A stretch of 64,000 nt of DNA, taken from NCBI GenBank assembly GCA_002255955.1, contig NKIM01000002.1:186001-250000 (forward strand), written 5' to 3'. The DNA is from Burkholderiales bacterium PBB2 (GTDB taxonomy: Bacteria; Pseudomonadota; Gammaproteobacteria; Burkholderiales; Burkholderiaceae_C). Under the pieces are notes generated by a model. The model searched no databases, was not told the origin of the DNA, and was given only the letters and a program-made list of their open reading frames with translations. The position numbers and the translations under genes are program-made. This document shows, piece after piece, positions 21,935 through 24,198 of the stretch (the first letter of the stretch is position 1; the number at the start of each line of letters is the position of its first letter).

Positions 21935-22123
21935 TCAGCCACCGTGTGGTGTCGCCGCGTCGAAGCCCATCAGGACCGCGGCCAGCTCCAGCGAGCGCCA
22001 CAGATGCGGCGGCATCTCCATGATGCGCTCCGGCGTCTTGGCCTGGGTGGTCCAGCTGAGGATCTCGAAATGCTGCTCGGGGCTGAGCAGCTTGAGTGCC
22101 AGCATCTCGTTCAGGGTTTGCAT
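21935..22123 (-). CDS. Small hypothetical protein, 62 residues
   Basis: The ATG at 22123 is preceded by GAGGAG with an 8-base spacer, which supports real translation. The product is soluble, contains no Cys, and looks mostly helical (MLALKLLSPEQHFEILSW, then a Leu/Ala/Met stretch). No known domain was recognised. It lies between the orphan binding protein and the hairpin array behind prfC, on the same strand as prfC. Confidence 0.6.
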   Translation of the reverse strand: MQTLNEMLALKLLSPEQHFEILSWTTQAKTPERIMEMPPHLWRSLELAAVLMGFDAATPHGG

Positions 22124-22193
22124 CGCCGCCGCTCCTCGGGCCCACAGGCCTGTGCCATGTTTCGGCTCAGGCTAGCACAGCAGGGTGGGTGTT

Positions 22194-22479
22194 TTGGCGA
22201 CGCCAAGGCCGCAGGGCCTTGGTTTTGTCCCAACTCAGCCCGGCCTTTGCACGCAGGACGTGCACGGTGTTCACCGGGCGTCGCTTGATGCGCAGGCATC
22301 AAGCTCGGTCCCAGTTCACCCCGGCCTTTGCACGCAGGACGTGCAAATGCGTTCGTCAGGCGTTGTTGGATGCGCATGCATCCAACTCGGTCCCGCTTCT
22401 CCCCGGCCAGCCCGCGCGGGACGCGGTCTGGCGTAAGTTGAGCGACGCCAAGGCCGCAGGGCCTTGGCTTTGTCCCAAC

Positions 22480-22483
<4 letters not shown>
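22194..22483. repeat. Tandem array of about 82-bp units, each with two covarying hairpins
   Basis: Three units start with GTCCC at 22227, 22308 and 22390, and a fourth, partial one starts at 22472. Each holds a first hairpin (TGCACG-CAGGA-CGTGCA; TTTGCACG-CAGGA-CGTGCAAA; CCGCG-CGGGA-CGCGG) and a second hairpin (CTTGATGC-GCAG-GCATCAAG; TTGGATGC-GCAT-GCATCCAA; GCCAAGGCC-GCAG-GGCCTTGGC). A lone hairpin of the last type stands at 22203-22222. The stems change sequence between units while pairing stays perfect and loops stay similar. In the last unit an outer stem, GTAAGTTG (22433-22440) with CAACTTAC (22476-22483), encloses the hairpin and includes the prfC stop codon. On the prfC strand this is the 3' untranslated region. 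Confidence 0.9.
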
Positions 22484-24132
<1,649 letters not shown>

Positions 24133-24198
24133 GGCGGCGGCGCGCAGCCGCAAAGGCTGCACGGGTCAGGGGGAAAGGGGCGGATTATCGCAGCGCAA

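Follow-up and report, generated by a model that had tools for sequence, protein, structure and literature searches.

The question raised by the prfC locus of Burkholderiales bacterium PBB2 is what a row of hairpins, differing in sequence between units and paired in each, is doing at the very end of a release factor gene. We examined the locus within a window of 64,000 nucleotides (contig NKIM01000002.1, positions 186,001 to 250,000), the whole stretch of DNA analysed, in which prfC (peptide chain release factor 3) occupies positions 22480..24162 of the minus strand as a 560-aa ORF matching NCBIfam TIGR00503 (705 bits over cut-off) and Pfam RF3_C. The array lies 3′ of prfC at 22189-22482, has the minus strand as its sense strand and consists of four A hairpins alternating with three B hairpins. 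The TAA stop codon of prfC (22480-22482) is the first triplet of hairpin A of unit 1, where it is predicted to pair with 22434-22436. The original prediction had placed this stop codon in the outer stem of the last unit; the TAA does lie within an A unit, but in prfC order that unit is the first. Further downstream is a small ORF of 62 aa (21935..22123, minus strand), in the same direction as prfC and without an NCBIfam match, whose start is also found 3′ of prfC in G009, with an array, and in G003, without one.

The units were scored with two covariance models: R2, built from 18 copies (the four window units and 14 from loci in six related genomes) and including the TGA described below, and R3, built from 66 diverse copies with the TGA columns removed. 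All features of the array are on the minus strand. Hairpin A of unit 1 (22434..22482; R2 61.4 bits, as a seed; R3 49.5 bits, as a non-seed; fold z −3.9) is followed by a hairpin B (22406..22432, limits set by eye; fold z −1.5, with 16 of 200 shuffles as good) that matches B elsewhere in place and form. Unit 2 comprises hairpin A at 22352..22400 (R2 54.3 bits and R3 43.6 bits, a seed of both; fold z −3.0) and hairpin B at 22327..22347, and unit 3 comprises hairpin A at 22270..22318 (R2 64.4 bits, R3 51.2 bits, fold z −3.9) and hairpin B at 22247..22265, both B hairpins being read from the sequence. Unit 4 is a hairpin A with a decayed outer stem at 22189..22237 (R2 56.7 bits; R3 32.3 bits, over positions 5-39 only), without a following B. 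Single-unit folds in the window therefore span z −3.0 to −3.9 for three A units and give −1.5 for one B unit; for the array region as a whole z is −6.8 in the sense and −6.6 in the antisense direction, and 0 of 100 shuffles equal it. The window units fold with one open 5×4 internal loop at the place where comparison of copies puts a C-G pair and a bulged A.

Much of the original description is borne out. The repeated units of about 82 bases are there, as three copies in register spaced 81 and 82 bases apart and a partial copy of 45 nt, 93% identical, lying 245 bases from the first. Both hairpins predicted for each unit were found, and the inner A stems do differ between units with both arms changed. 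The loops are similar across units as described, but they had been read on the other strand: in the coding sense, which is minus, the A loops are CTGC or ATGC. CsrB-like CAGGA loops on the plus strand were considered and rejected, since GGA is not a conserved A loop. Spacers are absent, in agreement with the statement that this is not a CRISPR, and no known repeat family was recognised, the best Rfam 15 match over the array scoring 16.5 bits (E 3) with no family at its gathering cut-off. A match to MIR535 of 18.4 bits lies inside prfC, and on 10 other loci only two tRNAs scored above the Rfam cut-off. By eye, no U run directly follows A or B in the window, so the hairpins do not have the form of an intrinsic terminator; in printed copies elsewhere, U runs belong to separate hairpins further downstream (again by eye).

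The check set beforehand, a covariance-model search of the whole genome and its relatives, showed that the array is not unique and that dispersed copies with covarying stems exist. In its own genome R2 found the four window units, two new copies at a norC-like gene and at xerD (E <1e-12), and three matches at E 0.3-2.3. R3 added two copies, behind ilvC and behind an M14-peptidase gene, making four further own-genome loci in total. The labels norC and norB are tentative, as they rest on a Pfam cytochrome c match and on sub-threshold NCBIfam matches (cytochrome c, cytochrome oxidase subunit I). With R2, matches were present in 15 of 18 genomes of the genus (E≤1e-3) and in 39 of 299 genomes of the family (E≤1e-5; at most 16 matches per genome), own genome included in both counts. 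With R3 at E≤1e-6, 7 of 399 genomes of the order had matches; one of these, G653, belongs to a different family and has 15. The class sample gave 0 of 368 genomes besides our own at the same cut-off. The family, order and class searches used stricter filters, by which weak matches are lost, and the sampled loci include close relatives, so the counts are not independent. Viral contigs gave 0 matches to the exact core pattern. By prfC similarity the closest named relatives are Roseateles, and Roseateles sp. Bin5 (L024) has a copy directly behind prfC; among 80 named prfC loci, no other had a match at E<0.2.

A nucleotide search of the own genome returned the array itself and matches judged to be due to chance, and thus the covariance model finds a repeat family that sequence search misses. 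A DNA similarity search of 39 genomes with our own likewise gave few true copies; six of its matches (E 0.004-0.006, query positions 110-142) lie in a gapdh-like coding gene, as judged by eye, and were dropped. In G653, the A hairpins of L299, L301 and L303 are identical at three places, the B hairpins are nearly so, and a similar tail follows B. These copies suggest recent spread, in a genome without a match to the transposase domain Y1_Tnp.

The general unit was derived from the copies on the coding strand. Hairpin A begins with the stop codon or TGA, followed by a 6-bp outer stem ending in GG, a bulged A, a C-G pair, a CGA/GAC internal loop, a 9-bp inner stem and the loop CTGC. The whole unit reads TGA, hairpin A, a GAAGG linker and hairpin B, measures about 70-90 nt and is often followed by another TGA. 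The bulged A was placed within A because the lone C-G pair is seen when copies are compared: over 66 copies it is C-G in 62, G-C in 2 and A-U in 1. Among 139 ungapped distinct copies, the bulged base is A in 127 and the CGA/GAC mismatch is present in 93, and the CTGC loop is conserved; some copies are paired straight through the internal loop and retain only the bulged A. That the CGA/GAC loop might form a kink-turn is speculative. Hairpin B was assessed separately. Behind A, 151 of 190 copies have a hairpin scoring ≥7; control stretches 200 bases beyond have one in 61 of 189. Copy by copy, in 109 of 190 no more than one of 40 shuffles did as well.

Covariation was measured on 66 copies at most 84% alike; these are the 66 of 68 selected copies, all first found with R2, that were aligned for this purpose and for R3, two xerD-array units being omitted. 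Standard pairs fill 82.8% of cells, compared with 57.4% after shuffling, and changes on both sides occur in 316 cells, compared with 88.9 (sd 9.0), and at 19 of 19 pairs; slid-register controls are 26.6-43.4% paired. The original reading of stem covariation as a sign of structural selection is thus strongly supported over these diverse copies, and orthologous stop codons carry differing yet paired stems. Inner stems are 94% Watson-Crick, with little excess of G-U or A-C; the 58 G-U and 39 A-C cells counted over 139 copies lean weakly towards the sense RNA as the selected strand.

Eleven sets of orthologous stop codons were available. Of 16 pairs, those with more than one Watson-Crick type numbered 11 for xerD (6 loci), 9 each for rho and prfC (3 loci each), 7 each for ilvC (5) and one further gene (2), and 5 among HIT-like genes (3). 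The values for rho, prfC and the HIT-like gene are rough, since copies with one-base shifts were not realigned before counting and the order of units is not the same in all prfC arrays. The clearest single-pair changes are those between L106 and L202 (xerD) and between L139 and L128 (ilvC). The other five sets, of two close loci each, had no pair with two Watson-Crick types. From the sequences of the varied sets, separate insertions and changes in place cannot be told apart. Within arrays the inner stems have a median identity of 0.94 (54 pairs), yet 24% of pairs fall below 0.6, and between loci the median is 0.5; the window array is of the mixed kind. At L229:1501-1823 and in L235 the units have a period of 91, with a stop codon positioned 4 bases into the element; L229 also has a sub-threshold antisense match to Rfam SorX (24.4 bits, cut-off 46.6).

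The first triplet of the unit is mostly TGA. Among 150 first units, from which two later units (L118 and one of L229) had been removed, it is TGA in 137, TAA in 6, CGA in 5, CGT in 1 and CAG in 1; TAG does not occur. Three partial or doubtful copies (L184:1408, L203:1578, L231:1667) and L109 were dropped from these counts and from those on motif conservation, hairpin B, the TGA after B and inner-stem identity. Four units with fewer than 240 upstream bases were left unclassed, and among the remaining 146 the triplet is an in-frame stop in 104 and not in 42, by the rule that it must close an open frame whose codon-position GC pattern is the best of all six. Even with the coding strand upstream in every case, chance would account for an in-frame stop in no more than one third. 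A crude comparison of words sorts the 104 in-frame loci into 74 gene groups. Because R2 includes the TGA, R3 served as the control for the stop-codon position: of its 27 matches, 23 remained after removal of the four known own-genome copies, and 19 of these lie behind a TGA, which in 11 cases closes an open frame longer than 70 codons; of the four without it, two are second units. A selenocysteine insertion element was rejected because TAA also occurs and the named upstream genes are ordinary.

Since copies away from stop codons carry the TGA too (for example L134, L183, L211, L310 and L311), the triplet is part of either the element or the site it targets, and stop codons are the position at which the element is mostly tolerated or useful. 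The copies in L134, L183, L185 and L211 (around 1501-1549) and at L188:102-150 share the context GAYGCAC-TGA and, where classed, are not at in-frame stops; the loop is AAGT in four of the five, and GGCAC follows B where the sequence is visible, so that they look like a longer related element. In L287, L289, L291 and L294 of the f30 genomes and in L310 and L311 of G653, the TGA follows a short C/G-run palindrome and is mostly not an in-frame stop.

We then compared orthologous sites with and without the element. Behind the norC-like gene it is present at 2 of 11 loci (G000 and G009), directly after the TGA and as two units in G009; at the other 9 loci, of 8 genomes, the TGA is followed at once by a ribosome-binding site and the norB-like gene. 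Of 16 ilvC loci one (G017) is unreadable at the stop. Three of the 15 readable loci (G000, G009 and G001) carry A and B between the stop codon and the terminator, with a TGA at the far end, and in the other 12 the stop (TGA in nine, TAA in three) is followed by a terminator-like hairpin. The prfC gene has the element in 3 of 16 genus loci (G000, G009 and G005), with four A units in the window and two in the near relative G009, and G003 has the same downstream gene without an array. The prfC 3′ ends of G006 (L279) and G012 (L276) show, by eye, TGAG followed by element-like fragments, possibly decayed copies, and the prfC match in L274 (G010) has one in-frame TAG. From this minority presence we infer gain rather than loss. 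Terminators were detected downstream in 11 of 144 loci (3 upstream, 4 antisense). In 63 of 151 copies the 3′ foot of B carries a TGA, compared with 8 of 151 control stretches; this is partly trivial, because the next unit begins there. Among 123 last units, 49 have a TGA after B, and 18 of these have an A remnant behind it.

We conclude that the family is a TGA-tagged, REP-like, dispersed two-hairpin element found mostly behind TGA stop codons. We regard the structured repeat family as new and of the REP-like palindromic kind, REP-like repeats being known as a class; the full-text literature, in whose coverage subscription journals are largely missing, and the available portion of PMC2817692 hold no description of a TGA-tagged two-hairpin family. 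The reading that we favour, and hold to be somewhat more probable than not, is that the prfC array is a local expansion of this low-copy Burkholderiales element, which inserts at TGA, is mostly confined to stop codons by selection and has a role at the 3′ end of messages. It starts from what was observed directly: the family, its covarying structure, its stop-codon position and the orthologous sites without it. Insertion as the direction of change, its mechanism and any function in RNA are what we infer from these. The element would enter immediately 3′ of a TGA and always in the same orientation, and selection would remove insertions inside genes, so that it is left mostly behind coding-strand TGA stops; arrays would grow mostly by tandem duplication, and units could be lost. 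The hairpins would then occupy the 3′ end of the mRNA, at some loci between the stop and an intrinsic terminator or between two co-directional genes. Because they start at the stop and sometimes precede terminators or the next gene, we guess at 3′-exonuclease protection and an effect on termination: they are predicted most likely to shield mRNA from 3′-to-5′ decay, and they may delay termination or recycling at the stop, as is reported for REPs near stop codons. Tentatively, and with more doubt than conviction, we go further and suggest a novel mobile class of two-hairpin elements that recognises TGA, homes to opal stops via an unknown enzyme and acts through its hairpins at termination in the mRNA. 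The family offers a natural experiment, with one structure, different stems and the same stop codons, present or absent among near relatives. It makes testable both the part of REP-like stop-codon hairpins in mRNA decay or termination and the spread of palindromic repeats without a known transposase.

A search for a mobilising enzyme bears on how far the element could be purely selfish DNA, its hairpins being single-stranded DNA structures recognised in trans by an HUH (Y1) enzyme, like IS200/IS605 ends, with no role in mRNA and a stop-codon position that is a residue of selection. Such an account fits the single orientation relative to TGA, the TGA on both sides of many copies, the orthologous sites without the element, the identical dispersed A hairpins of G653 and the bulged base in the hairpin. 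Y1_Tnp genes are also present in 14 of 15 genomes in one set tested and in 4 of 7 in another, G130 being in both. It is harder to reconcile with G653, G130 and G427, which had no Y1_Tnp at E≤0.01 despite their element copies, and with the Y1_Tnp loci (candidate RAYTs), 0 of 32 of which had an element within ~1.5 kb at E≤1; a search with R2 at E≤10 gave only two partial matches (E 3 and 5.8), and an association with RAYTs was not supported. The differing yet paired stems among orthologs, for which separate insertions are possible, also suggest that structure was kept after arrival. We regard purely selfish DNA as unlikely, if the most serious of the competing accounts. In G644 (G644:C89), the sole Y1_Tnp gene found (L312) lies ~5 kb from the sole listed element (L291). 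Genes shared beside elements were, by eye, orthologous neighbours and common families (ABC transporters, aldehyde dehydrogenases, GGDEF), and of the flank-ORF clusters of first-unit loci, of which the 14 largest were listed, the three inspected held no transposase.

The stop codon inside the motif could instead point to an immobile host RNA motif that arises and is kept gene by gene for regulation, for example as a protein-binding site at stop codons serving ribosome rescue or 3′-end protection. The conserved bulged A, CGA/GAC loop and CTGC loop between free stems would suit such a site, as would the recurrence of xerD, ilvC, rho and prfC across genera. Yet the 74 gene groups have no evident common function (10 upstream or neighbouring proteins per library were scanned), presence is patchy within the genus, identical A hairpins stand at different places, and contexts away from stops are shared, which makes this account improbable. 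Mutation rather than selection might also keep the arms matched, if template switching at quasi-palindromes corrects both together, and the high Watson-Crick share of the inner stems, with little surplus of G-U or A-C, agrees with this. Template switching should, however, erase the bulged A and the CGA/GAC mismatch, both of which are conserved, and we give it very little credence.

As far as the available text of PMC3733652 goes, GTAG-tagged REPs often have their stop codon supplied by the tag (GTAG gives TAG), and GTAG REPs, BIMEs and REPINs resemble our family in being short imperfect palindromes, mostly 3′ of genes, clustered, with the tag as a frequent stop. Unlike them, our family has the tag TGA(G), and a GTAG tag was not found in the 150 first units. 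In contrast to REPINs and BIMEs, its two hairpins stand head-to-tail in a fixed order (B after A, checked on every second distinct copy), and the A matches of one array are all on one strand. Stems within our genome are, unlike those of REPs, mostly unlike each other, with the low copy numbers given above, and, unlike in the RAYT system, none of the 32 Y1_Tnp loci is flanked by the element. For CGTC-tagged REPs, the same available text (Di Nocera 2013, PMC3733652) knows no dedicated transposase, and none was linked to the element here. CGTC is found on the other strand (GACG in the sense) before a 9-bp inner stem with a 4-nt loop in 97 of 139 copies. In our family, however, it is embedded in a covarying stem of greater length and missing from fully paired copies, stem positions 1-2 are not complementary A-T (the first pair is G-C in 45 of 66 and A-U in 8, the second A-U or U-A in 10 of 66), and there is neither a CCA tail nor a head-to-head dimer.

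In E. coli, REPs lying no more than 15 nt from a stop codon are reported to lower translation (PMC12306157, citing its ref. 17). A hairpin beside the stop is common to both cases, whereas here the stop itself is part of the element, the sequence is unrelated and an effect is predicted only. Integron attC sites carry R and L boxes with GTT/AAC cores, and no such core was visible in the alignments of copies. Palindrome-associated miniature elements of the IS200/IS605 type carry a different hairpin at each end and insert on the 3′ side of a fixed, short target, always the same way round. Neither a transposase nor an autonomous relative of our element was found, unlike for these elements, and the likeness is one of anatomy: two different hairpins with TGA at the 5′ end, in one orientation, and nine norC-like TGA sites that stand without the element.
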